A stretch of DNA of 60,666 nucleotides. It comes from Candidatus Saganbacteria bacterium (GTDB lineage Bacteria; Margulisbacteria; WOR-1; O2-12-FULL-45-9; XYB2-FULL-48-7). The DNA lies in assembly GCA_016939335.1 (NCBI GenBank), contig JAFGHC010000027.1, positions 1 to 60,666 of the forward strand. The letters are read 5' to 3'. The notes under the pieces were generated by a model. The model was not told the origin of the DNA and searched no databases. It saw nothing but the letters and a program-made list of their open reading frames with translations. The position numbers and the translations under genes were made by a program. Shown here piece by piece: positions 19,629-51,799 of the stretch (position 1 is the stretch's first letter; the number at the start of each line of letters is the position of its first letter).

Positions 19629-19656
19629 TTATCGGCCCCCCGTTTGAAAAATTTCA
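19629..19656 (-). promoter_or_regulatory. Sigma-28-type promoter P1
   Basis: On the minus strand: TGAAATTT (19656-19649), 12 bases, then GCCGATAA (19636-19629). The -10 is identical to the FliA consensus GCCGATAA. It points at the orphan gene starting at 19588. Confidence 0.75.
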
Positions 19657-19772
19657 CTTAATTTGTTAATATAACTAACAACACGTCCGCTAGAAACCTT
19701 TAAGTGACCGGCGGACTACGACACGGTCCGACTGCGCCGGACCTACAACTAACAACTTCCGGAGGCGTTAGC

Positions 19773-20132
19773 GTGTCCTTCAGATTCCTAGATTTCCCGG
19801 TCTACAAAGAAATCAAAAAATACATTGGAGATGTTTACTCGCTCTCCTCAAATTTCCCCAAAGACGAACAATTTGGCTTAACCAATCAATTGCGCCGGGC
19901 CGCGACCTCGATCGCCCTGAATTTGGCCGAAGGATCGGACCGGGGTTCGGACCAAGACTTTAAACGCTTCATCCAAATGGCCATTGGGTCGGTGAACGAA
20001 ACGGTCGCAGTTTTAGATATTGCTCTTGAAATGGGCTTCATTAGCCAAGAAAATTACGCTATAATAATAAAGAAAGCTGAAAGCATTGTTAAGCAATTAT
20101 CCGGTTTTCGGCAATCTTTAAAAGGCCGTTAG
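19773..20132 (+). CDS. Four-helix-bundle protein (23S rRNA IVP family)
   Basis: A 119-residue protein of the four-helix-bundle family originally found in intervening sequences of 23S rRNA. Family marks are the N-terminal FPVYKEIKKYI, the central LTNQLRRAATSIALNLAEGS, then FIQMAIGSVNETVAVLDIAL and the C-terminal IVKQLSGFRQSLK. I take the GTG at 19773, 7 bases after GGAGG, giving the normal length. The gene is bracketed by word-repeat DNA (ACAACTAACAAC before it; GTTAGTTGTTAGTTGTAG after its stop). It does not lie in an rRNA gene here. A second, different copy is at 29361. The function of stand-alone copies is not established. Confidence 0.85.
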   Translation: MSFRFLDFPVYKEIKKYIGDVYSLSSNFPKDEQFGLTNQLRRAATSIALNLAEGSDRGSDQDFKRFIQMAIGSVNETVAVLDIALEMGFISQENYAIIIKKAESIVKQLSGFRQSLKGR

Positions 20133-20215
20133 TTGTTAGTTGTAGCGAGGCCGCCGCAGGCGGACGAGCGTGTCGTAAGTTGTCAGTCGTAGTTCGCCGC
20201 AGGCGAACGTGTTGA
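20133..20215. repeat. Word repeats and triloop hairpins
   Basis: GTTAGTTGTTAGTTGTAG follows the four-helix-bundle gene, then two hairpins with a GCA loop. One has GCCGCCGCAGGCGGAC. The other is GTTCGCCGCAGGCGAAC at 20192-20208. The ACAACTAACAAC words before the gene (19750-19758) are the complement of the first element. Confidence 0.6.
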
Positions 20216-20218
20216 TAC

Positions 20219-20291
20219 GCGGGAGTAGCTCAGTTGGTAGAGCATCACCTTGCCAAGGTGAGGGTCGCCGGTTCGAGCCCGGTCTCCCGCT
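20219..20291 (+). tRNA. tRNA-Gly (GCC)
   Basis: A full cloverleaf. The acceptor stem pairs GCGGGAG with CTCCCGC, the D arm is GCTCAGTTGGTAGAGC, and the anticodon stem TCACC/GGTGA encloses the loop TTGCCAA (anticodon GCC). A 5-base variable loop (GGGTC-like) and the T arm CCGGTTCGAGCCCGG follow. CCA is not encoded. The eno gene begins 66 bases downstream. Confidence 0.95.
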
Positions 20292-20292
20292 T

Positions 20293-20343
20293 TTAACTTG
20301 TAACTTACGAACTTATAACCAATAACTGAAAGAATAACTGAAA
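20293..20343. repeat. Word repeat between tRNA-Gly and eno
   Basis: Words such as AACTTGTAACTTACGAACTT and CAATAACTGAAAGAATAACTG. The reverse complement is found in frame within lpdA at 16097-16132. It carries the AAAGGGG that serves eno as ribosome site at its end. Confidence 0.7.
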
Positions 20344-20357
20344 GGGGAAATTTTATT

Positions 20358-21692
20358 ATGGTCAGGTTAGGAGAAGAGTATTTTTTTGTCGGTGAACGGG
20401 CAAAAACAGGAGCACGGATCGAGGCGGTGCACGCCCGCCAGGTCCTCGATTCGCGGGGCAACCCGACCGTTGAGGTTGACGTGGCCCTGAAAGACGGCAC
20501 GCTCGGACGGGCGGCGGTCCCCTCGGGCGCTTCGACCGGCGAGCACGAAGCGCTGGAACTGCGGGACAAGGACGACAAGCGCTACGGCGGAAAGGGAGTC
20601 TATACCGCGGTCAAGAACGTCAATGAAATAATCGCGCCCAAGGTCGTCGGGCTCCCCTCGCACCAGCAGTTGAAGATCGACAACCTGATGCTGGAACTTG
20701 ACGGGACCGAGTTCAAGAGCAAGCTGGGCGCCAACGCGCTGCTCGGCGTCTCTCTCGCGGTCGCCCGGGCGGCTTCAATTTCCTACGGAGTGCCATTATT
20801 TAAGTACATCGGCGGCGATCAGGCCGTCACCCTCCCCGTACCCAACATGAACGTGATGAACGGCGGCGCCCACGCCGGCTGGAACTACGAGCTCCAGGAA
20901 TTCATGATCTCGCCGGCCGGGGCCCAGTCCTACTCCGACGCCTTGCGGATCGGCGCCGAGGTCTATCAGGCCCTGAAAAAGGTACTGAAAGATAAAGGGC
21001 ACCCCACCACCGTCGGCGACGAAGGCGGGTTTGCCCCCAAGCTGACGAAAAACGAGGAAGCGATCCAGGTCATCATCGAAGCGATCGAGCAGGCCGGCTA
21101 TACGCCGGGCCAAGATGTTTATCTCTCGCTTGATCCCGCCTCAAGCGGATTTTACAAAGACGGCAAATACAGCCTGAAGAGCGAAGGCAAAGAGTTTTCG
21201 GCCGGAGAAATGGTCGACATGTATGAGCAATGGGTCGGGAAATACCCAATAATTTCCATCGAGGACGGCCTGGCGGAAGACGACTGGGACGGCTGGAAGA
21301 TCATGACCGAAAGATTGGGGCAAAAGATCCAGCTGGTCGGCGACGATATTTTTGTCACCAACCCGGACTTCCTGAAGAAAGGGATCAAGCAAAAGTGCGG
21401 CAACTCGATCCTGATCAAGCTTAACCAGATCGGGACGCTGTCGGAAACACTCTACACAATGGAAGTCGCCAAAGCGGCCGGCTATACATATATGACCTCG
21501 CACCGGAGCGGCGAGACGGAAGATGCGACGATCGCCGACCTGGCGGTGGCCAGTAACTCCGGCCAGATCAAGACCGGCGCGCCGGCACGGTCGGAGCGGG
21601 TCTGTAAATATAATCAGTTGCTGCGGATCGAAGAAATACTCGGGGCTAAAGCGAAGTATATCGGACTGGCGGGGTTCAACCCGAAAGTCTGA
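20358..21692 (+). CDS. eno: Enolase
   Basis: A 444-residue phosphopyruvate hydratase. All family signatures are present: [17 protein letters not shown], the mobile loop [14 protein letters not shown], the catalytic GDEGGFAP, metal ligands in [21 protein letters not shown] and [10 protein letters not shown], and the catalytic Lys region [13 protein letters not shown] with [17 protein letters not shown]. The start at 20358 follows AAAGGGG but gives about 18 residues more than usual before [14 protein letters not shown] ([20 protein letters not shown]). No other in-frame start nearer the conserved block has a ribosome site. The extension abuts a word repeat. The gene is convergent with the 21676 orphan and overlaps it by 17 bases. 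Confidence 0.97.
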
Positions 21693-22740
21693 CAAGCAAC
21701 CGCAACCTGACCCCGTTCGGGCTGTCCACTTCGAGGCCGGAGTTCGTGGGCGCCAATATTTGCGGCCGGACTTTCCCTTGAAGCGCGCTCCCCTCTCTGG
21801 GCGCCTTCAGCGCCTCTTTTCGCGCTTCCACTTCGCCCTCGAGCCGTGCCAATCGCATTTCGACGACCATCAGTCTTTTGTCCATTCGCCAGGCGGCGCT
21901 TCCTTCCGGCAATTTCCCCTTCTTTCCGGCCAAGCGCTGAAGTTGTTTCCGGGCGGCCCCGATCTCTTTGCCGATCTTGGCCAGATACTTCATGTATTTC
22001 CCCAGATCGCCTTTAACATATCTTCCGCACTTCAGTCTTAAATCGACGTCCTGGATCTCACGCCAAATCACCACATTACTTGAGCGCAGCTGCGCCAGCA
22101 ATGAACGGCTTGTCAGTACTTTTTGGCCGGTCCAGTGGACCATTAGTCCAGTGCTCCCTTCTCTCAGCTTCAAAATACCGCCAGAATGGCGTTCAACCGC
22201 AATAGTTCGGACAATTTCTCCCGGTGATAAGCCAACCAGGGAACGGTCCTGTTCGGCCAGGTCATGCGCCATCCTATTGATTATTCTTATCTGCTCTATG
22301 TCTTTTGCCAGCCCCTTTGCCTTTTGCCCCAGCAACTCTAAACCAAGCTGCAAATCATAACCGCCATTATCTTTAAGCATCTCTCCCGGGGGAATTTCCC
22401 CTTGCCGGATGCCCGATAAAAGCTCGTCTATTTTGGCGCTCATATCATCGACACGTTTGGCAAAAAAATAAAGCTGCCTGCCTGTGAATTTCTCCTGCCC
22501 AAGACGTCCTTCTATCATCACCAGGCTTGTATACATATATGTCAGCAAGACCTGCCCCAGTTGTAAAAAAGTCGGCTGCGCATGCCAGTTGATCGCGCCC
22601 GGCCGGATAATCGGTCCTGTTTGCAGGCGGGGATTTTCCTGGATAATTATCCCCGGCTGTATCCTGGCCCCTGTTCGTATAACTTTGGCTAACGACATGG
22701 ATTTATTATTGATTCCCGGCCCAACTTGTCCGACTGCCAT
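21676..22740 (-). CDS. Orphan protein, sigma-28 regulon candidate
   Basis: A 354-residue protein without a recognised family. It has no Sec signal: the N terminus is [19 protein letters not shown], followed by an Ile/Pro/Gly/Arg-rich segment. Residues about 60-180 are helical with heptad-like patterns ([20 protein letters not shown], then [18 protein letters not shown]). A middle part, [20 protein letters not shown], looks like beta strands. Further coiled-coil-like helices follow ([20 protein letters not shown]). The 3' end overlaps the eno 3' end by 17 bases. The promoter at 22763-22790 is TGAAATTT-N12-GCAGATAA. Its function is unknown; the layout (disordered start, long helices) is what one sees in many secreted effectors, which is only an analogy. 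Confidence 0.65.
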
Positions 22741-22762
22741 TTAAAAAGTTGCCTCAAAATAA

Positions 22763-22790
22763 TTATCTGCCTGGAGAACATTAAATTTCA
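22763..22790 (-). promoter_or_regulatory. Sigma-28-type promoter P2
   Basis: Minus strand: TGAAATTT (22790-22783), 12 bases, then GCAGATAA (22770-22763). It drives the 21676-22740 gene; a GAGG lies between promoter and ATG. Confidence 0.65.
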
Positions 22791-22902
22791 CCCAATCCCA
22801 ACTTTTTTCAGATCTTGGGCGTGGAAGCCAAAAGCTGCCGGGCAGAGGGACACCCCGGTTCACCTTTTATCGGTTTAGCTCCAACTATCTGGAAGTTCAC
22901 GG

Positions 22903-23571
22903 CTAACAGAGATGAACAGGGACCGGCGTCCCGGTCGCCGACAAATGCGCGGCGCGATATTGTTCGGCAAAGAGGTCCTTGATCTCGTGCCGGCCGGGAT
23001 TTGCCGGGTCAAGCCGCAGTTCGGGTTCGGCTTTCAGATAGCCAAGGAAATAAGCCAGGTTGGAGACCAGCTGGCGCGGCCCCAGGGGCCCCTCCCGCTC
23101 GTTATAACAGTTCAGATAGATCATTTGCCTCGGCTCATCCATGTGCCGCCATTTCAAAACCGAATGATCGATCAGGGAAAAAGCGAACGGGTGGTTCTCG
23201 GCCCAATCCGCTCCTTCCAGTACACCGTCAACCACAAAACCTCTGACCACCGAACCGTTCTGCCGGTTGTATAGATGCGAGCAAAAGACCAGCGCCCGGC
23301 AAAATCCAGCCAAATCGGCTGACAGTCCTGCCCGATCGATCAATTCCTGCATCTCGACCGGGACCAGCGAAATATCGGTCCTAACAAGAACGCTCTTCTC
23401 TTTCGCCCTAAAACCGGCGCACAGTTCCTGAACGACCTGGAACGAAGGGGCGGAAGTTTCGGTGCCATGTTCAAAACCGAGCAGCGCCCGTTCCACGTGC
23501 GCCTGCCGGCCCAGCCGATAGCGGCCGACGCAGCTGGTCATTAAGCCTAAAGAAAGCGCCCTGAATGCCAT
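22903..23571 (-). CDS. Orphan protein, sigma-28 regulon candidate
   Basis: A 222-residue protein of unknown family with several cysteines and no signal peptide or membrane helix. Visible pieces: ALSLGLMTSCVGRYRLGRQ at the start; a helical ELCAGFRAKEKSVLVRTDI; AGFCRALVFCSHLYNRQNGS; a strand-rich RGFVVDGVLEGADWAENHPF; and MIYLNCYNEREGPLGPRQLV. It looks like a globular cytoplasmic fold. It lies directly downstream of the dpp operon on the same strand but has its own promoter 15 bases from its start (TGAAATTC-N12-GGCGATAG). No Shine-Dalgarno sequence is visible in the very short leader. Confidence 0.65.
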   Translation of the reverse strand: MAFRALSLGLMTSCVGRYRLGRQAHVERALLGFEHGTETSAPSFQVVQELCAGFRAKEKSVLVRTDISLVPVEMQELIDRAGLSADLAGFCRALVFCSHLYNRQNGSVVRGFVVDGVLEGADWAENHPFAFSLIDHSVLKWRHMDEPRQMIYLNCYNEREGPLGPRQLVSNLAYFLGYLKAEPELRLDPANPGRHEIKDLFAEQYRAAHLSATGTPVPVHLC

Positions 23572-23585
23572 GTTAATTCGGGTAT

Positions 23586-23613
23586 CTATCGCCAGAGCCA
23601 GCGGGGAATTTCA
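23586..23613 (-). promoter_or_regulatory. Sigma-28-type promoter P3
   Basis: Minus strand: TGAAATTC (23613-23606), 12 bases, then GGCGATAG (23593-23586). It lies in the 51-base gap between dppF and the 22903 orphan. Confidence 0.65.
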
Positions 23614-23622
23614 GTTCTGGGA

Positions 23623-24327
23623 TTAGATCCGCAGGGTCGAGGCAAGGAGTTTCTGGGTGTAGGGGTGGCGCGGGGTAGCCAGAACCTCGGCCGGGGGGCC
23701 GAGCTCGACAATCTCCCCTTCCTTCATGACCGCGATCCGGTCGCTCAAATAGCCGATGACTGACAGGTCGTGGGCGATAAAAAGATAGGTCAGCCCGATC
23801 GTCCGCTTCAGCTCTTTTAGCAACATCAATATTTCCGCCTGGACCGAAACGTCAAGCGACGAGACCGGCTCGTCGAGCACGAGGAATTGCGGTCGCGAAG
23901 CGAGGGCGCGGGCGATGCCGACCCGCTGGCGCTCGCCGCCGGAAAGCTCGTGCGGGTAACGCCCGGCGTATCCCTTCGGCAGCCTGACCATTTCCAGCAA
24001 CTCATCGACTTTACTGCCGGTTTTATGAATTTTAATCGGCTCCGCGATCGCTTCACCGACGCGTATTCTCGGGTTAAGCGAGGTCTGCGGGTCCTGGAAA
24101 ACGATCTGGCAATCGCGGCGGAGGTTGTCCAGGCCGTGATAAATGACCGAACCCGAAGTCGGCGCGATCAGCCGCAGGACCAGCCGGGCGAGCGTCGATT
24201 TTCCCGAGCCCGATTCGCCGACCAGGCCGAGCGTTTCGCCCTTAAAGATCCGCAGATCGATCCCGTTGACAGCGGTTAGCGGGCCGAATCTCTTAACGAG
24301 TTTGTTTATTCCGATCAGTTCATTCAC
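23623..24327 (-). CDS. dppF: Oligopeptide/dipeptide ABC transporter ATPase (second)
   Basis: A 234-residue ATPase that powers the Dpp/Opp-type peptide importer. Walker A is GESGSGKST, the Q loop [12 protein letters not shown], the signature SGGERQR, Walker [14 protein letters not shown] and the switch His in FIAHDL. It is short: typical DppF/OppF proteins are about 320 residues with a C-terminal peptide-transporter extension containing an iron-sulphur or regulatory tail, which is absent here. It still ends in the family-like [10 protein letters not shown]. The ATG overlaps the dppD stop. It is the last gene of the operon dppB-dppC-dppD-dppF. Confidence 0.9.
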
Positions 24328-25123
24328 GGTTAATTATCCTCAAGGCGTCGAGCAGCTTGCGCGTATAGGAAGATTGCGGGCGGGAAAGGACCGCGGCCAC
24401 CGGGCCGGTCTCGACGACAGAGCCTTTGTTAATGACCAGAACGTCCCTGCAGAACGCCTTCACGATGCCGAAATTATGGGTGATAAAAATGACGGACAGG
24501 TTAAACTCCGCCTGCACCTCTTTTAACAGCTGGATGATCTCCAGCTGGATCGTGGTGTCGAGCGCGGTCGTCGGCTCGTCGGCGATCAGGAGCTGCGGCC
24601 GGCAGGCGAGCGCCATGGCGATCATCACCCGCTGGCGCATCCCGCCGGAAAACTGGTGCGGATAGTCATGGGCCCGCCGCTCCGCTTCCTTGATGTGGAC
24701 CGCCTCGAGCCTTTTGACCGCCGCCGCCCAGGCCGCCGCGCGCCCCAGCCCCTGATGCAACCTGACCGCTTCGGCGATCTGCTCGCCGACCGTAAAAACC
24801 GGGTTGAGCGAAGTGAACGGGTCCTGGAAGATCATCGAGATCTTGGCGCCGCGGACGCGGACCATTTCAGCGTCTGATAATTTAAGCAGGTTTTTGCCGT
24901 CAAAAATTATTTCGCCGGACGTGATCCTCCCGGGCGGCGCGATCAATTTCATGAGCGCCAGGGCGATCGTCGATTTGCCGGAGCCGGACTCGCCCGCGAT
25001 GCCAAGCGTGGCCCCCTTGGCCAGGCTAAAGCTGACGTTAGCGACCGCCTTAACGCCCGGATAAACTACCGATAAATTCCCCACAATTAATTGTGGGGAA
25101 TTTTTTAAATTATTGTCTAACAT
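24320..25123 (-). CDS. dppD: Oligopeptide/dipeptide ABC transporter ATPase (first)
   Basis: An ATPase of the Dpp/Opp peptide importer, 267 residues from the ATG at 25123 (an in-frame ATG at 25153 is the alternative). Walker A is GESGSGKST, the Q loop [12 protein letters not shown], the signature SGGMRQR, Walker [13 protein letters not shown] and the switch His in FITHNFG. It is shorter than the usual 320-330 residues, lacking most of the C-terminal extension. The N-terminal residues [10 protein letters not shown] are encoded by a perfect 30-base palindrome (25074-25103) of the REP-like class. The start overlaps the dppC stop and follows GGAGAAG. Confidence 0.9.
25074..25103. repeat. Perfect palindrome inside dppD
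   Basis: A 30-base perfect inverted repeat centred on TTAA, with arms AAATTCCCCACAATT. It is in frame in dppD and related to the hairpins at 18726 and 60619. Confidence 0.8.
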
Positions 25124-26808: not shown

Positions 26809-26830
26809 CGGTTCATTTTAGTATATTAAC

Positions 26831-26858
26831 TGAAATTTCTCCACTCCGGCGCCGATAA
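26831..26858 (+). promoter_or_regulatory. Sigma-28-type promoter P4
   Basis: TGAAATTT (26831-26838), 12 bases, GCCGATAA (26851-26858), the best match with P1. The GTG start at 26865 lies 6 bases after the -10, so the transcript would be leaderless. Confidence 0.75.
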
Positions 26859-26864
26859 TTTTGC

Positions 26865-27806
26865 GTGAGCGAGCTAAGTATTCCACCGCTGTCATATTCT
26901 CATGCCGAGCCTGCCGAGCCGCCCGTAAAAAAGACGGGAGCTGGCAGTGAAAGCCAGGTTCCGCAAAAACCGGTGACGGTCCGGCCAAAAGCCAAGGGCC
27001 TGTTGCAGGGGTTTGGATATTTCAATCCCGGCCTCGGTGCAATGTACGGCGCTTCGATCAATGCCTACGAAAACGCCTTAAATCATCCGGCTTACGGCGA
27101 AATGAAAGCCGAATACTCCCCGACCGTGATCACGGATGACAAGCCGGACCTTTCCTCTGTCTTTCATCACTGGTCTTTTTTTGTCGACCTGGGACAATTC
27201 CGCCTCGGGCACGATTTGAGCAATACTGACCAAACGCTGCTGCTGCGCGAAAGCTACCTGACCGACAACTTCTATCTGACCTACAATATCAGGGAATTAA
27301 CGGTCGAAATGACGAAGCAAAACTACGGCTGGCTCAGCCTTTCGCTCTTGAGTTTCGGGGAAAAAGATAACCCGGTCTTTTTCACCCTCTGGCTCGATTA
27401 TGCTCTGGACCGCTACAACTTTACTTTCAAGGGCTCGAGTTATTCATATTATCCCTACCCCACGCCCGAAAAGGACCTCAATTCCGAGGCCCTGCTCGGT
27501 TCGGGCGGCGGCTGGGGGCACCGGATCGCCGCCGACATCGTTCTGACGAGTTCGGAGGGCCGGCCGGGCCGCGGCGAATTCGCCTGGTTCTTATCGCTGC
27601 AAACGGGCTACAACTTCGGCCAGCTGAGCGATGCCGCCAACGGCTGGCGGAGCCGGTTGTCCGCCTGGACCACCGGCATTTCCTTCGGGGTGCAGTTCAA
27701 TCACACCGGCGCGCAGACAAAATATGTGGATTGTCCCGAGCAGGATACTGGTCACGGACCCGACGGCGACTATTGCGATCTGACCAGGGACTATTACGAC
27801 TATTAG
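26865..27806 (+). CDS. Orphan beta-rich protein, sigma-28 regulon candidate
   Basis: A 313-residue protein of no known family, inserted against the direction of the dpp operon. The N-terminal 45 residues are disordered and Pro/Ser/Glu-rich (SELSIPPLSYSHAEPAEPP) with no Sec signal. From about residue 85 the sequence alternates in a beta-barrel-like way, with aromatic residues at strand ends: HHWSFFVDLGQFRLGHDL, FYLTYNIRELTVEM, FFTLWLDYALDRYNFTF, FAWFLSLQTGYNFG and TGISFGVQFN. The tail is acidic and Tyr-rich (DLTRDYYDY). It could be an outer-membrane-barrel-like or jelly-roll protein; the missing signal peptide argues against ordinary Sec export. The GTG start is chosen from the promoter position. 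Confidence 0.65.
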   Translation: MSELSIPPLSYSHAEPAEPPVKKTGAGSESQVPQKPVTVRPKAKGLLQGFGYFNPGLGAMYGASINAYENALNHPAYGEMKAEYSPTVITDDKPDLSSVFHHWSFFVDLGQFRLGHDLSNTDQTLLLRESYLTDNFYLTYNIRELTVEMTKQNYGWLSLSLLSFGEKDNPVFFTLWLDYALDRYNFTFKGSSYSYYPYPTPEKDLNSEALLGSGGGWGHRIAADIVLTSSEGRPGRGEFAWFLSLQTGYNFGQLSDAANGWRSRLSAWTTGISFGVQFNHTGAQTKYVDCPEQDTGHGPDGDYCDLTRDYYDY

Positions 27807-33504: not shown

Positions 33505-33532
33505 TGAAATTTTCCGCCACCCCGCCCGATAT
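33505..33532 (+). promoter_or_regulatory. Sigma-28-type promoter P5
   Basis: TGAAATTT (33505-33512), 12 bases, CCCGATAT (33525-33532). It stands about 60 bases before the ATG at 33595 and would transcribe the 33595 gene and the GH9 cellulase. Confidence 0.65.
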
Positions 33533-33594: not shown

Positions 33595-34269
33595 ATGACA
33601 TACGTAAGCGCACTAATTCCATCCTTAACTCTGGCCGCCGGGCTGAATAAAAAGGGAGAGGGCTCATCGGTCAAAGCGATCGCCGGCGAGGTCGTAAAGA
33701 TACTGGAGAACGACGGCACTGACAACGCCTCTGTTAAAGCGGCTGATTATCTTAAAGGGCAAACAACCAGCGCCGAGAAACAGGGGAAAGTACTGGAAGA
33801 GGTCAGGAAAGCCCTGATCGCTACCGGTGAATATGACAATAACTCCATCAACACTGTCATTGGCGATATTCGCAATCGGCTCCGCTCTGCTTCGGCGCCA
33901 AAAGCGGAGGAAGTAAGACCGGCGGCGGCCGCCGCCAGCGGAGAGCTTAAGGGCGAGATCGTCAGCATCACCAAGACCGGCTCGTTCGGCGGCGACGGAT
34001 CGCCGCAGGTGAACATCAAGGTCAAGATCGAGAACCTGCCGGCAGGCGCTCACACCTTGAGCGGTTTCCTTCGGACCAATAAAGATTGGCCGGCGGGCGG
34101 CTGCACCACCGGCGGCAAGAGCTCCGGGACGTTCACTTTCCAGGCGTACCTCCATCCGGGCAATCAGTCGAGCCCGTTCTATATCGAGGTTGCCGATAAA
34201 TACGGCAAAAAGCTCGGCCGGATCCCTGAAGGGGATTACGACACTCTGAAAGTTCGTTTCCCGAGGTAG
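33595..34269 (+). CDS. Orphan protein with beta-sandwich C-terminal domain shared with the cellulase
   Basis: A 224-residue protein in two parts. Residues 1-115 are helical (VKAIAGEVVKILENDGTDNA, then KVLEEVRKALIATGEYDNN) and end in an Ala-rich linker. Residues about 120-224 are a beta-rich domain: GEIVSITKTGSFGGDGSPQV, VKIENLPAGAHTLSGFLRT, GTFTFQAYLHP and FYIEVADKYGKKLG. The GH9 enzyme encoded next ends in a domain of the same length and strand order (IRFRFTNIPPAVVSLKGNIY and FFIQGFDRTGKRIF), so the two are probably homologous. That suggests a shared carbohydrate-binding or anchoring role, which I infer only from linkage. No signal peptide. AGGGGGTG precedes the ATG. Confidence 0.7.
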   Translation: MTYVSALIPSLTLAAGLNKKGEGSSVKAIAGEVVKILENDGTDNASVKAADYLKGQTTSAEKQGKVLEEVRKALIATGEYDNNSINTVIGDIRNRLRSASAPKAEEVRPAAAAASGELKGEIVSITKTGSFGGDGSPQVNIKVKIENLPAGAHTLSGFLRTNKDWPAGGCTTGGKSSGTFTFQAYLHPGNQSSPFYIEVADKYGKKLGRIPEGDYDTLKVRFPR

Positions 34270-34331: not shown

Positions 34332-36527
34332 ATGACCTTGGCAATTTCCGATACTACCAGCGCCCTGTTGCTGGCTTATCATTTAGAAAAAAAAGATAGT
34401 TCGTCGGCTTCTTCTCCCCCCGGTGAAGAAGGGGCGCATCTGGTCAGAAAAGCTTCCCCCTCTGCCCCGGCGGAAGGGACGCACCTTGTTAGGAAAACCG
34501 CCTCCTCTGCCCCGTCGGACGTCGACATTCTGGTCAATCAGGCCTTTTATCTCCCCGGCTACTCCAAGGTCGCGCTGGTCCGCGCCAATAGCGAAATCGC
34601 GGCCGGCAAATTCAAACTTACCGAAACCAGCAGCAATAAAACCGTTCACGAAGGCGCGCTAAAAAGATATGGAACATATGCCCGCTGGGGCAATGAGTTT
34701 TATTACTTCGCTGATTTTTCTTCACTCAACAAAGAAGGAACGTATAAATTAACGGCCGAATGGCCGGGGCATCAGGCCTCCGCTGCTGTTGTCATCAAAA
34801 AATCGGAATTGAGCCGCGCGACAGGCAATGCGGCCGGGTTTTTTTATTTTCAGCGCTGCGGCGCGGCGATTCCCGGCTGGCACGGGCCCTGCCATACCAA
34901 TGATCCAGAGGGGACGGCCGGCGGCTGGCACGACGCGGGAGATTATAATAAATACATTTACACCCAGTGGCAGCCGGCTTGGGCGCTTCTCGATCTTTAC
35001 CAGAAAACAAAGGACCGGAAATATCTGGCCGAAGCTAAATGGGGAGAGGATTTTTTGGCCAAAATGGTCAGGCCCGACGGGAGCATGTGGAGCGCCGTCT
35101 TCGGCGGCTGGGACTGGACCAGGCCGGAACAGGGCAATACCAGGGAGCTGACGTCAGCTCAATGGGGCGACCCGACCTGGGCAGTAGCGGCCAACAGCGC
35201 GACTTTCGCTAAGATGGCCGCTTATACTTCCGGCACGGAGCACGAGAAGTTCCTCCGCCTGGCCAAACAGACCAACCAGTATTTCCGTCAGCATTTCCGG
35301 TTCGGGCACATCCCGCGCGGCGAAGACCTTCAGGGGCTCGGCGGAATCGTCCTCAGCGACCTTTTGCTCCACGAACAGACAGGCGACGGCTCATATTTGG
35401 CCGACGCCGAAAAGAACGTCCGCCTGATCCTGGCGCACCAGGACCGGCGCGGCTTCTTCTTTACCGACAGCAACAGGCAAGAACCTTTCTGGGACGACTA
35501 CATGACCTATTTCTTTGTCGAGGCGCTCGGCGATTACGCCCGCCGTTTCCCGCGCCGCGAGCTGACCGGCCAGATCAAGGCCGCCCTGCGCAACCTGGCC
35601 GATAACCAGTTGAAATTCCTCTCCTCCCGCACTCCTTTCCGCCAGATGCAAATGCTCGACCCTCTCGACCAGCACCCGCCGAACGGCGAGGTTTTTGAGA
35701 ACTTTTTCGACAAGAAGATCGAAGGCTGGATCCGCGGGGCCAATAGCTACTACCTGTCGTCGGCCAACGCGGCGATGATCGCCTATTCCCTGCTCGGCAA
35801 GCCGGAGTACAAGGAGATCGCCATTAACCAGCTGAACTGGGTGCTCGGGGTCAATCCTTATGGCATTTCTTTCATGGAGGGGAGCTGCGTCAGGTGCACT
35901 AAGAACGGTCATCACCGTTATGACACTTTACCCGGGCACGCCAATGGGATTGTGCCGGGCGGGATCACCAACGGTCTGGCCAGCAACAACGGAGAAGATT
36001 ATTTTTACGACGCTCTGGGCAAGACCTGGGCGAGCAATGAGACCTGGCTGCCGCATAACGCCTGGTTCATCATGCTCGGCTTAAAACTTTCCGCTTATCT
36101 TGATGAGGCGGCCGCCGCTTCCAGCCTGACCGTCAACAGTGATAGCGCCAACGCTGAAAAAAAACCGCCGGCCGCCCCGGAACCGGTCGTGATCAGCGCT
36201 TCCGGCCTTCTCCCCAACATCACTTTCCAGTCGGTAGTCAGGAATGGAACGCTCAAAGAGAACGGCGATTCGATCGGCGTTGATATCAGGTTCCGGTTCA
36301 CCAACATTCCTCCGGCGGTCGTTTCTCTCAAGGGAAATATATATACCAGCGGCATCTGGCCGCAGGGAGAAGTTAAGGTCGAACGGGGGAAAAGCGACTA
36401 TATTTTCAAGGCCTTCCTGTACAAATTGAACCGTTTCAGCGGTTTTTTTATCCAGGGTTTCGACCGGACAGGAAAAAGAATCTTTCAAAGCGATTCATTC
36501 CCGATCGAACTACCTCCCAAGAAATAA
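34332..36527 (+). CDS. Glycoside hydrolase family 9 cellulase without signal peptide
   Basis: A 731-residue GH9 endoglucanase-type enzyme that hydrolyses beta-1,4-glucans by inversion. Order: a disordered N terminus with a duplicated G-A/T-HLVRK-(T/A)-S-(P/S)-SAP unit (about residues 34-60); an Ig-like CelD_N domain (ILVNQAFYLPGYSKVALV to WPGHQASAAVVIKK); and the (alpha/alpha)6 catalytic domain. The catalytic part shows the base motif GGWHDAGDYNKY, the HHRYDTLPGHANGIVPGG block and the acid Glu in SNETWLPHNAWF. The last 100 residues are the beta domain shared with the 33595 protein. All catalytic residues are present, but there is no Sec signal, which is odd for a cellulase. It may use another export route or act on an intracellular glucan. 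It is probably co-transcribed from P5. Confidence 0.88.
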   Translation: MTLAISDTTSALLLAYHLEKKDSSSASSPPGEEGAHLVRKASPSAPAEGTHLVRKTASSAPSDVDILVNQAFYLPGYSKVALVRANSEIAAGKFKLTETSSNKTVHEGALKRYGTYARWGNEFYYFADFSSLNKEGTYKLTAEWPGHQASAAVVIKKSELSRATGNAAGFFYFQRCGAAIPGWHGPCHTNDPEGTAGGWHDAGDYNKYIYTQWQPAWALLDLYQKTKDRKYLAEAKWGEDFLAKMVRPDGSMWSAVFGGWDWTRPEQGNTRELTSAQWGDPTWAVAANSATFAKMAAYTSGTEHEKFLRLAKQTNQYFRQHFRFGHIPRGEDLQGLGGIVLSDLLLHEQTGDGSYLADAEKNVRLILAHQDRRGFFFTDSNRQEPFWDDYMTYFFVEALGDYARRFPRRELTGQIKAALRNLADNQLKFLSSRTPFRQMQMLDPLDQHPPNGEVFENFFDKKIEGWIRGANSYYLSSANAAMIAYSLLGKPEYKEIAINQLNWVLGVNPYGISFMEGSCVRCTKNGHHRYDTLPGHANGIVPGGITNGLASNNGEDYFYDALGKTWASNETWLPHNAWFIMLGLKLSAYLDEAAAASSLTVNSDSANAEKKPPAAPEPVVISASGLLPNITFQSVVRNGTLKENGDSIGVDIRFRFTNIPPAVVSLKGNIYTSGIWPQGEVKVERGKSDYIFKAFLYKLNRFSGFFIQGFDRTGKRIFQSDSFPIELPPKK

Positions 36528-36633: not shown

Positions 36634-36661
36634 TGAAATTTTTCCCGTTTTTTCACGATAA
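36634..36661 (+). promoter_or_regulatory. Sigma-28-type promoter P6
   Basis: TGAAATTT (36634-36641), 12 bases, CACGATAA (36654-36661). It abuts the 3' gene remnant and is 23 bases before the ATG at 36685. Confidence 0.7.
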
Positions 36662-36684: not shown

Positions 36685-38676
36685 ATGACCGGTCGTATCA
36701 GTACATCTTTAGAAAAAGCTCGGGCGACAGGCCGTTCTCTAACTCGCTACGCCCGGCGGCTTTTATTGCCTTTAGGCATAGCGGCCGGCCTGGCCGGCCT
36801 TGGAACAGTCGCTACGCTCGCCAAATTCACCAAAGACGAATCGTTTAAAGGGGCAGTGTATCACCCATATGTTCCCGAAGTCCGGCCATTGATCAAAAAC
36901 GTTCTCCCTCTCCCGGAAACATTGAGCAAGCTAACCGCCCAGGGCGCTCTCTCGGAAAGCGATCTTTACAACCTGGCCGACAGAGCTCATCAGCAACTAT
37001 ATGAAATGAGAGATAAAACCGGGAGGCTCACGAACGATGACGCTGACAGTCTCGTCAAAATCGCGCGCGCCATCGATCAAGCCAATACGCAACATCTTGA
37101 CGCGGACAATCAATGGCTGGCAGTTATTACGCGGATTAAAATCGCAGAGACGCTATTTTTATCATTAAAGGGAGAGAGCTTTTATTCGCCAAAGTGCGGA
37201 CCTTATATCGATCTTGCCATGGATATCGCTTCACAAAATTATGGGCGGCTTGCCGCCTTCCCGCGTTCGGCAGAAATTTTAGGGCTTAAAAGAATAGATG
37301 ATCCGCGACTGATCCCGGTTATAATCAATGACATCCTTTATGCGGCGCTCCATCTGTCCGAGACGCGTCCCTTGCCTATTTGCGAAAAAGAAGGAAACTC
37401 CCCCGACCGGTTCGGGCAATTTGACGAATATGTCAGGGGTATAATTTTCCGGGGTGACGGAGGGGCCGACATGACCTTGGAAGAACAAAAGGATATCGCG
37501 CTCACTTATCTCGAACAAAGAATGAGGAACGGCTATTGGTACAAGGGGAAAGCCCAGGCGGCTAACCGTTATTATCAAGAACTGGTCGGGGGCCGCCTGG
37601 TCCGCATCGACATAGAAAACCTGAAGATAGTCTCCACGGCGCGCAAGGCGTTGCGCAAAAAAGTTCCGCTTTTTAAGGAAAGCTGCGCGGCACACGAGTG
37701 CCCCCCGACCCTGCTGGCGACCATCGCGCTTTATAATAATTTATTTAAGGCGCGCTTCCCTGTCTATCGGGTAGCTGACGGGCTTAGTATCTTTTCCTCA
37801 TCTACGTCAGAAGCTTCCCTGGCCTCAAAAGCGGCAAAATGGGCGCGGGGAAAATGGAGCGAACCACTTAAAGGCATTGCCTTTCAAGACCGGTTTACAG
37901 ACTTTATATCGGGAGTGTTCCTGGGCGCCTGCGGGACAACGGGCCTGATGCAAGTTCGCGCCTGCCCTCTTCAGTTTCAACACATAAAGAATATTAGAGA
38001 AGATGACTTATGGGGGAGATTGGCCGCACCTGCCGATGACTGGTCCAACCAGCGAATAAATTATGCTTTATATTTTAAGGATAAATATTCGATCGAAGCC
38101 GGGGCCGCGCTTTGGGGACAGATGCTCAAGAGACTGGAACAAATTGAACTGGCCGGGCAGCCGCAGTCAGTCAGCCTGCCTAAAATGGCTCATTTCAAAA
38201 ACGGAAATTGGCGGCTAAATTATTCTCCCGACCAATCTTTCTTCGGTCCGGACTTCTTTTCGTCATTATTTGAGGCCACCTACGGAAGGTTTCATTCTGG
38301 AGAATATCTCTATTCCGGCTTAATCGACCCCCCTAAGGCCGACGTTCCCGCCTATGCAACAGATTACATAGATCCGGCGACATATTTGTTCAACGTATAT
38401 TTTTTGCCCAATGCCCGCCCTTTTTCCGCGCTCCATCGCGTTATTCTTCAATCAGGTCTCTTCCGGGCAGGTAAAGGGCTTTTTGTGGGCCTAACTCGAA
38501 TTAATCAATTGGAACAATTGGACAAGGCTCTTTTATCCGGCGACGAGTACCTAGCCAAGGCGGCCGAAAGAACTATTTGCGCAATAAGCGCGGATGCTTC
38601 TCACCCGCAATTCAAGGAAAAAGCGATTGCCATAAGAGAGAATAGGAATTTAGCTTGTAATTTTTCAATAGAATGA
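36685..38676 (+). CDS. Large membrane-anchored orphan with transglycosylase-like motif
   Basis: A 663-residue protein with a basic N terminus and one membrane helix at about residues 26-47 (LLLPLGIAAGLAGLGTVATL), then a long soluble part. The only familiar stretch is ECPPTLLATIALYNNLFKAR followed, about 70 residues on, by FLGACGTTGLMQVRACP. The GLMQV phrase is the hallmark of lytic transglycosylase (SLT/lysozyme-fold) domains, and IEAGAALWGQMLKRLE also resembles their end. The expected catalytic Glu is not where I would look for it, so activity is doubtful. The C-terminal 200 residues match nothing known. It has its own sigma-28-type promoter, and GTGGAG precedes the ATG. Confidence 0.55.
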   Translation: MTGRISTSLEKARATGRSLTRYARRLLLPLGIAAGLAGLGTVATLAKFTKDESFKGAVYHPYVPEVRPLIKNVLPLPETLSKLTAQGALSESDLYNLADRAHQQLYEMRDKTGRLTNDDADSLVKIARAIDQANTQHLDADNQWLAVITRIKIAETLFLSLKGESFYSPKCGPYIDLAMDIASQNYGRLAAFPRSAEILGLKRIDDPRLIPVIINDILYAALHLSETRPLPICEKEGNSPDRFGQFDEYVRGIIFRGDGGADMTLEEQKDIALTYLEQRMRNGYWYKGKAQAANRYYQELVGGRLVRIDIENLKIVSTARKALRKKVPLFKESCAAHECPPTLLATIALYNNLFKARFPVYRVADGLSIFSSSTSEASLASKAAKWARGKWSEPLKGIAFQDRFTDFISGVFLGACGTTGLMQVRACPLQFQHIKNIREDDLWGRLAAPADDWSNQRINYALYFKDKYSIEAGAALWGQMLKRLEQIELAGQPQSVSLPKMAHFKNGNWRLNYSPDQSFFGPDFFSSLFEATYGRFHSGEYLYSGLIDPPKADVPAYATDYIDPATYLFNVYFLPNARPFSALHRVILQSGLFRAGKGLFVGLTRINQLEQLDKALLSGDEYLAKAAERTICAISADASHPQFKEKAIAIRENRNLACNFSIE

Positions 38677-38783: not shown

Positions 38784-38811
38784 TGAAATTTGCCGGGCGC
38801 GGAGAGGATAT
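38784..38811 (+). promoter_or_regulatory. Sigma-28-type promoter P7
   Basis: TGAAATTT (38784-38791), 12 bases, GAGGATAT (38804-38811). The -10 is the weakest of the set and overlaps a TATATAAT that a vegetative sigma factor could use. It precedes the 38847 gene. Confidence 0.55.
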
Positions 38812-38846: not shown

Positions 38847-39224
38847 ATGTCCGATTCGCTCGCCGGCCCCGTGCCGGCCAAGGTCCCGGTCTACCGCCTG
38901 GTCCCCGCCGAGCAAAGAAAAAGAAAGCGGGGGAACGAAAAGGAGCGGCTCGGCACGGCCAGCGCCATGATCAAGGTCTATTCGCACGACGTGCTGGCCG
39001 CCGCGGAAGAAGGCCGCAAGACCAGGCTGCTCTGCCAGATCACCGCTACGGTCCCAAGCAAAACGGGCCGGTCCGCCGATCAGGTCGAGGAGGTATTCGA
39101 CCTGGATCACCGCGAAGCCGCCCCCTACATAAAAGCTTCGACGACCTTCCCGGACACCTGCAGTATCTATACGCTGATAATCAAACGGCCGGCCGATCCC
39201 CGCAATATAAATTTCCTGAAATAG
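38847..39224 (+). CDS. Orphan small protein, sigma-28 regulon candidate
   Basis: A 125-residue protein of unknown family. The first 35 residues are basic and flexible (VPVYRLVPAEQRKRKRGNEK). The rest looks like a small alpha/beta fold: TASAMIKVYSHDVLAAAEEG, TRLLCQITATVPSKTG, DQVEEVFDLDHRE and CSIYTLIIKRP. It has two cysteines and no signal peptide. AAAGGAGC precedes the ATG at a normal distance. It is convergent with the Asp-box protein gene (14-base gap). A longer frame in another phase starting at 38831 is a composition artefact. Confidence 0.6.
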   Translation: MSDSLAGPVPAKVPVYRLVPAEQRKRKRGNEKERLGTASAMIKVYSHDVLAAAEEGRKTRLLCQITATVPSKTGRSADQVEEVFDLDHREAAPYIKASTTFPDTCSIYTLIIKRPADPRNINFLK

Positions 39225-43432: not shown

Positions 43433-43433
43433 C

Positions 43434-45244: not shown

Positions 45245-45248
45245 TTTT

Positions 45249-46454: not shown

Positions 46455-46463
46455 GGTTGCTCC

Positions 46464-47417: not shown

Positions 47418-47465
47418 GATCAGGACTATAATATAGCACAAAGAGGGGAAAAAGACAAAGCAGGG

Positions 47466-50400
47466 TTATTGGGCCAGAAGTTCTCCTGTCAGCCGCCGCA
47501 GGACGCTGGTCTCAAGGTTGACCTGGAAAGGATCGGCGGCCGCTTGCCGCGCCGACAGGTTGAGCGTCACCCCTTGAGGGCCAGGCTGGGTCAGGTCGAG
47601 GCTTTGCAGGACATACTTTAAATAAGCTTTGACAATGTCGCCGTCCGCCTTATAACCGAGCAGCGACAACTGTTTCGCCAGGTCGCGCCGGACGACCGGC
47701 AGCGCGGCCAGCTTATCGGCCGGTATTGTCAGATCAAGCGCGGCCAGCTCCGCCAGGGAAATATCATAAGTGCCGGGATGAGCCTTGCTGGCTGTGGCCA
47801 GGATCGCTTCCGCCGCTCTGATCTGCTGTTCATCGCCCTCGGTCTTGATCGGGCCGGAAATGGCGTAGCTGCCGACCGTTCCTTCATCGCTGACCCAGCC
47901 GTTGCCGGTCGCCAGCATGGCAAAGTGCTGCCGCTCGCCGAAGACCTTGATATCGGCAAAAGTCCGGCTGCCGACCACTTCACCGGTCAGTGGATTGACG
48001 ATATTGACGCGCCGGCGGTTGCTGCAGACCACTTCAAACCGGGTGCGGCTGCCGCTGGTATCCTCGGGGAGATGGTGTTTTGCGCGGTAGCGGCCGATCG
48101 CGTCAGCCACCGCTTCCAGCAATTCCTCGTCCAGCTCGGCATAGTTGCCGACCTCCAGCCGGTCGAGCGAACCTAACGCTCCCAGAAGCCTGGTCAGCGC
48201 GCGGTTGCCCGGCTGGTCGGCCAGCGCCCGCCGTTCTTCAAAAGAAAGCTGGTCATAATTTCTGGCCGCCTGAAGTATCCCGAGGAAGGCTTGCGCCCGC
48301 GTCAGGCTGACGGTCCGGCCGTTAACTTCGATCCGCTTGGCAACTTCGCTGAAATACGGGATCTCGGTATCCTGGTCCCTGACAGCCAGAACGCCGGAAC
48401 CGTCGCGCCGGGCGCCCAGGTCGTGAAAGGCGTTGATGATGTCGCCCCGCGTCCATTTCCTGCCGATCCACCGGTCGGTGCCGAGAGTCTTGCCGGCCGT
48501 TTCCATAAAAATAAATGTCAAAAACCCAACTCCCACACCGGCCACCGCCTGGCCTCCAAAGCCGAACGGTCTGGCCACTTTGGCCGCCGCCAGACCGGCC
48601 GAAGCGGCAATATACGCGGTCAAAGCCTGGACAGCGACCGCCAGGGCGGCGTAAGCTTTGGTCGCGGCGTCGCTCGAAGACAAATGCTCCCGATGTTCGA
48701 CTGTCGAAGAAAGGGCCGCCAGGCCGGCCGCCAGCGCTCCGCCGAGCTTGACCGGGGATATTTTTGTAGCCGCGCCGGCCGTATTTTCCAAGACCTTTAG
48801 TCCGGTAAAAAACACAAAGTACCCCTCCACCGCCCCAGCTGCCACCTTGACCGCCTTGCCCGCTCCTTCTTTACGTATCTCGTCCCAATGTATGGCAATA
48901 TCGAGCGCGATGATCACCGCCATCATCGGACCGTGCTGGCGGAGGAAACCGTTAACTTTCATCCCGATCCGGTTTTTAAGCTCGGCCAGTTCCGCTTTTT
49001 TCTGCTTGAGGACGAACTTGTCCAGACCGCCCGATTTTATCTCCCGCTGCAAAGCCCTGGCCCGGTAATAATCGGCCTGCAAATCTTTTTCGAACGCCTG
49101 TTTGGCCGCGGCTTTATGTTCGAACTCGGCCCATTCCTTCTCCCAGGCGGCCGCGGCAACCCGGCGCGCTTCGGCTTTTTCGGCGGCGCTGACGGGGAGC
49201 TTGTCGATCCTGGCCAGCGCGGCAGCGCGGGCCTGCTCAAAGGCCGCTTTAGCCGACATGGTTATTACTGGCGGGGCATCGGTCTTTGCCACTTCATAAA
49301 CCAGTTTGTCGCCGTCAACGATAAACCTGACGAACAACCCGTCACGATTACTTTGGTCGATCAGGCCGGACCGGTTCTGGCCGGCGATCGGCCGGGGGTC
49401 AGCGAGCGCGCGGCCGAGCGGGTGCACCAAGCCATAAGCCTTGCCCTGATTATCGTAGCGGACTTCCACGATCAGATTGCGGCGCTGCGGGTTCAATTTT
49501 TTGCCGGCCTCGCCGTACTCCATTAAGACCGCTTTTTCGCGGTTGAAATAAACATCGAGGTTGGCCGAGCTCCCGGGCAGCTCGATCGTGCCGAAACCGG
49601 CGGTGACCGTCAGACCGCGGTAGTAAACCCCCGCCCGGCCTCTGGTGATCTGCGTCAGATCGACCGTCACATATTCCACGCCGCCGAGCTCGTAAACGGC
49701 TGGCCGGAACCGCTGGAGATACTGCCGCCCGAGCACCGTTTCTTTCAGCCGGCTCGTCTCGACCCGGAGATCAAAGGGGCTTTCATTCAACTCTTTCATC
49801 AGATCGGCCAGCGCTGTTTTCATCGTCTCCGGCGGAACGTTCTCGTCCGCCAGGAGGTAAAACTCCTCGGAGCCGGGACCGTGGCGATAAAGAGTGATCC
49901 CTTTCTCCGCCAGGCCGGCCCGGCTCGCCGCCTGGGCGAACCTGACCTCGACGACGGCATCCATCATCGCCTCACCGATAAAACCGAGCGAGCGGAAAGC
50001 GCCAACAGAGTTGCCGTCAAAAAAGGCGAAACGGACCCGGCGCCCGCCCCGGAGCAGCGCCGTCGCGTCGGCGCCCAGTTGCGTATTGTCGCGCAAGCCG
50101 GAGTGGGGTTCGACATAACGGCTACCCGCCGGCGCCTGGACCGCCCGGCTCTCTTCTTTGATCCGGTCATAATTGGGCAGGCGGAAAGCCGGGGTGAATG
50201 TTTCGAGGTAGCCGCTTTCCTGCCGGCCGACCCGGAATTCACGGCCAAAGCGCCCCGCGCTCGCCTCGGGGCGGTTCAGATAATAAATTTCTTCCCGCAG
50301 GCCGCGGTAGACGGCCTTATCGGAGATCCCGCCGGCCAGTTCGGCGGCATCGTAAACCAGAATGCCGGGAGTGACCAGCGTCTGTTTCCCCAAATTGGCG

Positions 50401-50951
50401 GCCGTCAAGCGGACCGTCCTTTTTTTATAAACAAAGTCAAGCCGGTCGGTAACTTTCACATCGCGGCTGATCGCTTCGGCGGTCGCGGCGTCGGGAACGA
50501 GCAGGGCAAAATGCGGCCCGTCGCGGACGATCACAATCTCCTTGGCCGGGAGGCCGTGAGATTCAGCCACCCGGCGCAGATGCTTGCTGAAACCCACCAG
50601 ATAATAATCGCCGGCATCATGGGAAACAGTGTCATTGATGTATTTCAGTCCCGAAAGATTGACCACCAGCCAGCGGGCCGGCCGGCCGGCGGCGAGCATT
50701 TTTTGGGTGTGAAAAACGTGAGCGTCCGAAGAGAACGCGCCGGTCCGGTCAAGCTTGAAAACCGGCTCGCCGACCCCGGCCGCCTTGCCATATGAAGTGA
50801 CCGGCGGCGGCGTGATCGGGACATATTTTAACTGCGGCGCTCCCGTTGCCGGATTTGCCCCTCCCCCCCCGCCAGTTTGCGGCTGTCTGGCAGCGCCGGG
50901 CGCTTCCGTCGGCCGGTAAGGATCAGTTCTATTAACACTCATTTCTGCCAT
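47466..50951 (-). CDS. Giant multidomain protein with two degenerate GGDEF domains
   Basis: A 1161-residue protein. Residues 1-55 are disordered (Pro/Gly/Ala-rich). Residues about 70-190 are a GGDEF-like fold: LVVNLSGLKYINDTVSHDAG and DYYLVGFSKHLRRVAE match the family, but the active-site turn reads RDGPHF, so cyclase activity is unlikely. A second degenerate copy lies at about 305-400, with FAFFDGNSVGAFRSLGFIGE and a GPGSEEF turn. Later parts are a charged helical region (about 580-680), hydrophobic segments at about 690-850 (VIIALDIAIHW, LAVAVQALTAYIAASAGLAA), and a C-terminal domain of unknown type. It may bind a nucleotide or act as a scaffold. No signal peptide. It lies downstream of the 51118 orphan, past a terminator-like hairpin. 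Confidence 0.7.
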   Translation of the reverse strand: MAEMSVNRTDPYRPTEAPGAARQPQTGGGGGANPATGAPQLKYVPITPPPVTSYGKAAGVGEPVFKLDRTGAFSSDAHVFHTQKMLAAGRPARWLVVNLSGLKYINDTVSHDAGDYYLVGFSKHLRRVAESHGLPAKEIVIVRDGPHFALLVPDAATAEAISRDVKVTDRLDFVYKKRTVRLTAANLGKQTLVTPGILVYDAAELAGGISDKAVYRGLREEIYYLNRPEASAGRFGREFRVGRQESGYLETFTPAFRLPNYDRIKEESRAVQAPAGSRYVEPHSGLRDNTQLGADATALLRGGRRVRFAFFDGNSVGAFRSLGFIGEAMMDAVVEVRFAQAASRAGLAEKGITLYRHGPGSEEFYLLADENVPPETMKTALADLMKELNESPFDLRVETSRLKETVLGRQYLQRFRPAVYELGGVEYVTVDLTQITRGRAGVYYRGLTVTAGFGTIELPGSSANLDVYFNREKAVLMEYGEAGKKLNPQRRNLIVEVRYDNQGKAYGLVHPLGRALADPRPIAGQNRSGLIDQSNRDGLFVRFIVDGDKLVYEVAKTDAPPVITMSAKAAFEQARAAALARIDKLPVSAAEKAEARRVAAAAWEKEWAEFEHKAAAKQAFEKDLQADYYRARALQREIKSGGLDKFVLKQKKAELAELKNRIGMKVNGFLRQHGPMMAVIIALDIAIHWDEIRKEGAGKAVKVAAGAVEGYFVFFTGLKVLENTAGAATKISPVKLGGALAAGLAALSSTVEHREHLSSSDAATKAYAALAVAVQALTAYIAASAGLAAAKVARPFGFGGQAVAGVGVGFLTFIFMETAGKTLGTDRWIGRKWTRGDIINAFHDLGARRDGSGVLAVRDQDTEIPYFSEVAKRIEVNGRTVSLTRAQAFLGILQAARNYDQLSFEERRALADQPGNRALTRLLGALGSLDRLEVGNYAELDEELLEAVADAIGRYRAKHHLPEDTSGSRTRFEVVCSNRRRVNIVNPLTGEVVGSRTFADIKVFGERQHFAMLATGNGWVSDEGTVGSYAISGPIKTEGDEQQIRAAEAILATASKAHPGTYDISLAELAALDLTIPADKLAALPVVRRDLAKQLSLLGYKADGDIVKAYLKYVLQSLDLTQPGPQGVTLNLSARQAAADPFQVNLETSVLRRLTGELLAQ

Positions 50952-50970
50952 GTTTTTGCCTTATTTATAA

Positions 50971-50997
50971 CAAAAAAGGAAGCCGTGAATGGCTTCC
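50971..50997 (-). terminator. Rho-independent terminator
   Basis: On the minus strand GGAAGCC, a six-base loop, GGCTTCC and then TTTTTT. It lies after the 51118-51735 gene and before the 47466-50951 gene, both on this strand. Confidence 0.75.
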
Positions 50998-51117
50998 ATT
51001 AATAGCAAACGCTACCGAATGTCAGGCTCATTCAGATGGCTCTTCTTTCATTAATATAATCGTAATAAATAGGCAAATTCTTGCATAAATAAGGGGAAAA
51101 TATAAACTAGGAGGGGG

Positions 51118-51735
51118 CTAAATTTCTTGCGGGATCACTACGCCCAGCTTGGCCAGAACAGCCGCCGCATCATCCCCCACCATGCGCAGGAGCTCCATGT
51201 GAACTGTCGGTTCAAAAGCGTCGGCCCCTTTTTTCTCAACCGTCATGATCCCATGCCGGCTGTATCTTCCCTCTCCGCCCGCATCAAGCTGTCTGGTCAG
51301 CAACGGCGTAATGATGACGCTTTTTTTGCCGATCTCCCTAACTTCGGGAAACGCTTGAGGGTTAACTGCGGAAACAGCCGTCGGCCGGCCCGAGAACGAG
51401 CCGAAAACGTAAAATTTTACGCAGTCGCCTTGAGGGACATAAAAAGAATGGCCCTCCGCCAGCGCGATCGCCTGAAGATCGGACAGCCCGCCACCCCGCT
51501 CGAAACTGGCCGAGAGTTTGCCGAACAAGTACTCAAGGTCCTGCCCGATCCGCTTATAAAGCGCTTTTGCGGTCGGTATTCCCATGAGCAGTCTGGCTTC
51601 ATGACCGTGTAAAATGCCGATCCGCGCCGCCAGGTGCCGGAACTCCGGCTCAAGATGTGATAATCTCGACATTGTTCCGAACCCAAAACCAGCAAACAGC
51701 CGGCAGCCCTCACCGGAGCCCACTGAACGCAACAT
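51118..51735 (-). CDS. Orphan protein, sigma-28 regulon candidate
   Basis: A 205-residue protein not assigned to any family. The N terminus is Gly/Phe-rich and not a Sec signal (MLRSVGSGEGCRLFAGFGFG). Residues about 25-90 look helical (FRHLAARIGILHGHEARLLM, then LYKRIGQDLEYLFGKLSASF). Residues about 95-160 look beta-rich (HSFYVPQGDCVKFYVFGSF, then GKKSVIITPLLTRQLDAGGE). The end is amphipathic (HMELLRMVGDDAAAVLAKLG). AGGAGGG precedes the ATG. The upstream promoter is TGAAATTT-N12-CTCGATAA, and a terminator follows the gene, so it is a single-gene unit. Confidence 0.65.
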   Translation of the reverse strand: MLRSVGSGEGCRLFAGFGFGTMSRLSHLEPEFRHLAARIGILHGHEARLLMGIPTAKALYKRIGQDLEYLFGKLSASFERGGGLSDLQAIALAEGHSFYVPQGDCVKFYVFGSFSGRPTAVSAVNPQAFPEVREIGKKSVIITPLLTRQLDAGGEGRYSRHGIMTVEKKGADAFEPTVHMELLRMVGDDAAAVLAKLGVVIPQEI

Positions 51736-51771
51736 CGTTCCCTCCTAAAAATGACCGGACGCTTCATTAGA

Positions 51772-51799
51772 TTATCGAGAGGAGAGCGGGGAAATTTCA
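51772..51799 (-). promoter_or_regulatory. Sigma-28-type promoter P8
   Basis: Minus strand: TGAAATTT (51799-51792), 12 bases, CTCGATAA (51779-51772). It drives the 51118-51735 gene. Confidence 0.7.

Follow-up and report, generated by a model that had tools for sequence, protein, structure and literature searches.

In Bdellovibrio bacteriovorus, FliA (sigma-28) is a global regulator of the attack phase, and most attack-phase promoters carry TTAAG-N16-CCGATA (PMC3627812). In Actinobacteria, WhiG, a sigma factor of the flagellar clade, has been reused for sporulation or pili (PMC8325347). The regulon of E. coli FliA is centred on flagella, its -35 element is usually TAAAGTTT, and one of its ChIP-seq sites, otsA, reads TGAAATT...GCCGATAA (PMC4183435).

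The DNA considered here is a 60,666-nt stretch (the window) of a Candidatus Saganbacteria genome, in which eight copies of one motif are, with good confidence, promoters of a single class-wide regulon, most likely read by a FliA-derived sigma factor encoded on contig C35 (the C35 sigma). The case works like those of Bdellovibrio FliA and WhiG. As in Bdellovibrio, sigma-28-type promoters precede many non-flagellar genes and a flagellar sigma factor has turned global; however, in contrast to the flagellated Bdellovibrio, Saganbacteria have no flagellin, their -35 reads GAAATT, rpoD counts among the core targets, and region 3 is missing from the likely sigma factor. As with WhiG, a flagellar-clade sigma factor has been recruited elsewhere, the -10 is GCCGATAA, and WhiG is among the nearest solved structures, but WhiG keeps three sigma domains and a -35 TAAA (PMC8325347). 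The -10 and the register of the -35 are those of E. coli FliA, which differs in the -35 itself, in a spacing written one base shorter and in its flagellar-centred regulon (PMC4183435). No earlier description of the system was found in the literature searched, nor any paper joining Saganbacteria with a sigma factor, and a published Saganbacteria genome paper mentions neither flagella nor sigma factors.

The sigma factor is filed as a FliA-derived variant because it scores below the curated FliA_WhiG cut-off and is without region 3. HrpL is an ECF sigma factor whose regulons consist of type III effectors. The present regulon resembles such regulons in having one sigma factor, one sharp box, and unrelated, fast-changing genes scattered genome-wide; nevertheless, HrpL is of the ECF type, and type III export of the products is here a proposal from their N-termini. 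The motif allows dozens of uncharacterised genes to be grouped by regulon in uncultured relatives of the Cyanobacteria, in which a flagellar sigma factor would have outlived the flagellar filament and apparently taken control of rpoD.

Promoters of the Window

An earlier note, made from the sequence alone, had listed eight sites in which TGAAATTY is followed by a 12-nt spacer, and all eight are present on the strands given below, each with precisely that spacing. It had counted two variant -10 elements, whereas four deviate (CAGATAA at 22763, CGATAG at 23586, CGATAT at 33505 and GGATAT at 38784); the strict pattern TGAAATTYN12NNCGATAA is exact in four of the eight, with 0.01 expected from shuffles. 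A weight matrix derived from the sites of this genome and run over both strands adds no ninth site to the window, in agreement with the note. Every site points into a gene, as had also been said, with the gene start 0–56 nt past the predicted start point of transcription, and none of the promoter-proximal genes matches a Pfam family above the cut-off.

19629..19656, (-) strand: promoter TGAAATTTTTCAAACGGGGGGCCGATAA, predicted start point ~19622
19010..19588, (-) strand: orphan gene, 192 aa, without Pfam family
22763..22790, (-) strand: promoter TGAAATTTAATGTTCTCCAGGCAGATAA, variant -10, predicted start ~22756
21676..22740, (-) strand: orphan gene, 354 aa, without Pfam family above cut-off
23586..23613, (-) strand: promoter TGAAATTCCCCGCTGGCTCTGGCGATAG, variant -10, predicted start ~23579
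22903..23571, (-) strand: orphan gene, 222 aa
26831..26858, (+) strand: promoter TGAAATTTCTCCACTCCGGCGCCGATAA, predicted start ~26865
26865..27806, (+) strand: orphan gene, 313 aa, without Pfam family, start codon uncertain (leaderless if right)
33505..33532, (+) strand: promoter TGAAATTTTCCGCCACCCCGCCCGATAT, variant -10, predicted start ~33539
33595..34269, (+) strand: orphan gene, 224 aa, heading the cellulase operon
34332..36527, (+) strand: GH9 cellulase, 731 aa, Glyco_hydro_9 and CelD_N, second gene of the presumed transcription unit
36634..36661, (+) strand: promoter TGAAATTTTTCCCGTTTTTTCACGATAA, predicted start ~36668
36685..38676, (+) strand: orphan gene, 663 aa, without Pfam family
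38784..38811, (+) strand: promoter TGAAATTTGCCGGGCGCGGAGAGGATAT, variant -10, predicted start ~38818
38847..39224, (+) strand: orphan gene, 125 aa, without Pfam family above cut-off
51772..51799, (-) strand: promoter TGAAATTTCCCCGCTCTCCTCTCGATAA, predicted start ~51765
51118..51735, (-) strand: orphan gene, 205 aa, without Pfam family

The 222-aa orphan shows weak similarity to a regulon protein of its own genome (site C4:50920; 27% over ~100 aa, E 2e-9), and no obvious Sec signal was seen by eye in the GH9 cellulase. Elsewhere in the window, an AbiEii-type toxin gene and an adjoining 204-aa gene (59076-60496) may form a type IV toxin-antitoxin pair, and beside the arginine biosynthesis genes lies a gene (47466-50951) whose 1161-aa product contains a weak GGDEF-like stretch.

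Genome-Wide Occurrence and Anatomy of the Motif

The genome of the window (G000; 1.53 Mb, 42 contigs) holds 24 matches to the strict pattern and 66 to the core TGAAATT-N16-GATA, against none for either reversed-pattern control; a controlled whole-genome search had been proposed in the earlier note. At 63 of the 64 assignable sites, a correctly oriented start codon lies within a range of -6 to +90 nt around the predicted start point, with gene starts picked by a simple script, so that individual ones may be wrong. The spacer is fixed, since 274 kb of this genome contain 25 matches at N16, none at N15 and one at N17.

Sixty-five aligned sites, read at positions not used for their selection, reveal further elements: an upstream block rich in A/T over positions -8 to -4 and in A at -3 and -2, a C or G immediately 5' and a T immediately 3' of TGAAATT, an extended -10 TGcCGATAw, with TGcC before GATA and A or T behind it, and a pyrimidine-purine step ~7 nt past the -10, as for a transcription start. 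Spacers and flanks of the sites are unrelated in sequence to one another. The motif stands in register with the FliA promoter, with (T)GAAATT where FliA has TAAAGTT, and canonical sigma-28 sites (TAAA) are not above control in the 274 kb. The sigma-28-type reading of the earlier note is largely right: it holds for the -10 and the spacing, but the -35 GAAATT departs from TAAAGTT, and the likely sigma factor lacks region 3 and falls below the FliA/WhiG cut-off.

Regulon Content and the Site before rpoD

Strict matches occur in all 31 tested genomes of the class (Saganbacteria/WOR-1), from two to 65 in each, the latter in G029, whereas seven other genomes of the phylum Margulisbacteria have 0–4; G037, outside the class and counted over its whole genome, has only three, one of them at the sigma operon. 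The best conserved member of the regulon is rpoD, with the motif just before it, at the end of dnaG, in 21 of the 22 class genomes examined. In the genome of the window, this site is:

C13:4428-4455: motif site before rpoD

No Pfam family is found in 44 of the 58 regulon proteins (~76%), compared with four of the 30 other genes of the window (Fisher p 2e-8), which bears out the earlier proposal of one regulon of mostly orphan genes. At most 14 of the 58 match Pfam, and these include three FGE-sulfatase-like proteins, two starch synthases, a phosphoglucomutase, a ROK kinase, an epimerase, a nucleotidyl transferase, a PEP-utilising enzyme, a GGDEF protein and RpoD; a glycogen synthase gene is among the regulon genes. 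The description of the targets as orphans or the cellulase cluster, with no housekeeping gene among them, is therefore accurate for the window but too narrow genome-wide, where rpoD and genes for glycogen synthase, phosphoglucomutase, ROK kinase and a PEP-utilising enzyme are included. Altogether, a sigma factor descended from a flagellar one probably controls, across the class, a regulon of ~66 mostly unannotated genes plus rpoD. The motif, its statistics, the promoter anatomy, the class-wide conservation and the sites before rpoD and before the putatively autoregulated sigma operon can be read directly from the sequences.

Sigma Factors That Could Read the Motif

The genome encodes RpoD, one ECF sigma factor and two sigma-28-like ones; a gene of the sigma-28 family, which the earlier note had wished to see sought, is thus present twice, on C4 and on C35.

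G000:C35:104-688: C35 sigma, 195 aa, Sigma70_r2 and Sigma70_r4 only, without r3
C4:75396-76118: C4 sigma-28-like gene, between flgBC and flgJ in the flagellar cluster
C4:98367-98855: ECF sigma gene

The C35 sigma gene closes a small orfA-orfB-sigma operon. In most relatives this operon comes after flhB-flhA, with flhA as its immediate upstream neighbour in ~20 loci of the class and also in Margulisbacteria outside it; in the genome of the window, flhA lies on the same contig, 11 kb further upstream. Of 30 class relatives, 28 have a sigma of this type, with identities of 61–92% where it is complete; the 90%-complete assembly of G029 gave no match to it. The motif precedes the operon in eight class loci (this genome and seven others); in four Margulisbacteria that do not belong to the class and whose sigma factor is only 29–34% identical, it lies in the flhA-orfA interval. 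In many class members, the sigma operon has no motif in front, and in several of them little room is left after flhA.

FliA_WhiG (TIGR02479) is the best-scoring family for the C35 sigma, at 69.7 bits against a curated cut-off of 189.6. A PDB profile search places FliA/WhiG as its nearest relatives, with region 4 closest to them, and WhiG and FliA are among the best Foldseek matches to an AlphaFold model, although the model is weak (pTM 0.46). It consists of sigma2 and sigma4 only, as do ECF sigma factors, but its sigma4 matches Sigma70_r4 at 3e-11 and the ECF-type Sigma70_r4_2 at 0.005, below the cut-off. Since the -35 differs, region 3 is missing and the curated cut-off is not reached, the C35 sigma is considered to be derived from FliA and not a canonical FliA itself.

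Neither OrfA nor OrfB, the conserved neighbours of the sigma factor, matches a Pfam family. OrfA is a possible anti-sigma candidate; no RsiG-like partner was identified here. At two loci (L135:1819-2661 and L137:3782-4627), OrfB and the sigma factor share a single uninterrupted reading frame, an arrangement that suggests that both act together. We infer that the C35 sigma is the reader of the motif and that OrfA/OrfB control it. RNA polymerase with the C35 sigma would recognise the A-rich block, the -35 TGAAATT, a fixed gap of 16 nt and the extended -10 TGcCGATAwA, and transcription would start at a purine ~7 nt downstream of the -10. The C35 sigma would drive its own operon, as the motif before the operon in many genomes indicates, as well as dozens of fast-evolving lineage genes and rpoD, which would couple the housekeeping programme to the regulon.

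A less probable reader, though the strongest competitor, is the C4 sigma, a fuller FliA/WhiG relative located in the flgBC-fliEFGHIJ / flgJIHAG cluster. Its FliA_WhiG score is higher (131.9 bits over its whole length vs 69.7), its region 2.4 resembles that of FliA, whose -10 is that of the motif, and it occurs in 29 of 30 class relatives with 62–89% identity. Both sigma factors are class-wide and, therefore, distribution alone does not pick the reader. However, the flagellar cluster that holds the C4 sigma has no motif in the genome of the window (C4:60-80 kb) and none in the complete genome G002; the C4 sigma was not found in G001 (assembly 79% complete), which has motif sites; and the motif instead accompanies the operon of the C35 type, including beyond the class.

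If RpoD, the primary sigma factor, used the motif as a promoter type peculiar to the class, this would explain the site upstream of rpoD, the best conserved of all; moreover, 274 kb contain few promoters with perfect TTGACA/TATAAT. This reading is nevertheless very unlikely: the sharp core, fixed spacer and lack of a degenerate spectrum are unlike a primary sigma factor, most housekeeping genes of the window have no motif, and extended TATAAT -10 elements exceed their control (21 vs 6 in 274 kb). In -35 as well as in spacing, TGAAAT-N16-CGAT is also similar to the promoters of ECF sigma factors, for example B. subtilis SigW, but the ECF sigma is missing from 11 of 30 class relatives, all of them motif-bearing, and this distribution leaves it with hardly any probability as the reader. 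A chance pattern or repeat, favoured by nothing beyond the sites having been found by eye, is refuted to near certainty by the empty reversed controls, the unrelated spacers and flanks and the conservation across families.

Flagellar Apparatus without Flagellin

The complete genome G002 encodes FlhAB, FliPQR, FliN, FliM-like, FliE/F/H/I, FlgC, FlgH, FlgI and FliK-like proteins. In both genomes examined for it, FliG lacks the C-terminal torque domain, with 156 aa in G002 (L220:10419-10889) and ~150 aa in the genome of the window (G000:C4:72188-72652). Flagellin_N has no match above the cut-off in the 31 class genomes; it has one in three of the seven genomes outside the class, where the flagellins carry no motif, and flagellin was thus rejected as a regulon member. 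The short FliG and the missing flagellin suggest an export machine of flagellar type that apparently provides no motility.

Within their first 40 residues, one of 63 regulon proteins of this genome and none of 37 from G020 and G019 have a segment of Sec- or membrane-like character, compared with 54 of 195 other genes (p 8e-7). Moreover, among 92 regulon proteins, acidic residues make up 5.6% of the first 30 positions and 12.2% of the rest (p 3e-15). Such acid-poor, Sec-less N-termini fit type III signals, but also other targeting or cytosolic roles and, therefore, it is offered only tentatively that many regulon products may be substrates of the flagellin-less export apparatus. Several regulon enzymes look cytosolic, which counts against export of all products. 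Equally speculative is the wider proposal of a flagellum-derived secretion system with a torque-less FliG, in which the FliA-derived sigma factor would run a changing regulon of exported orphan effectors, wired to rpoD.

Turnover of the Regulon Genes

Common protein domains across the regulon were considered and rejected, since the regulon proteins of the window's genome and those of G020 and G019 share almost nothing except OrfA and a small zinc-finger protein. From these sequence comparisons, the promoter and sigma factor appear to stay while the cargo turns over almost completely between families. The promoter is a first handle on the joint role of the uncharacterised regulon genes: the motif is a near-unambiguous sequence tag, usable in any Saganbacteria genome to predict which of these genes work jointly and are possible export substrates.

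The small zinc-finger protein (69–71 aa, possibly Com-like) has the promoter in G020 and G019 (L215 and L227), and an uncharacterised protein of 62–63 aa keeps it in two families of the order (L064:2619 and G000:C36:6403). In G001, a motif site (L265:1215) stands before the gene for a 144-aa protein that contains a helix-turn-helix like that of sigma region 4, possibly a further regulator. In G000:C7:1-53716, very large uncharacterised proteins (1232–1933 aa) are encoded in one orientation, with nine core sites before genes and several one-mismatch sites likewise placed.
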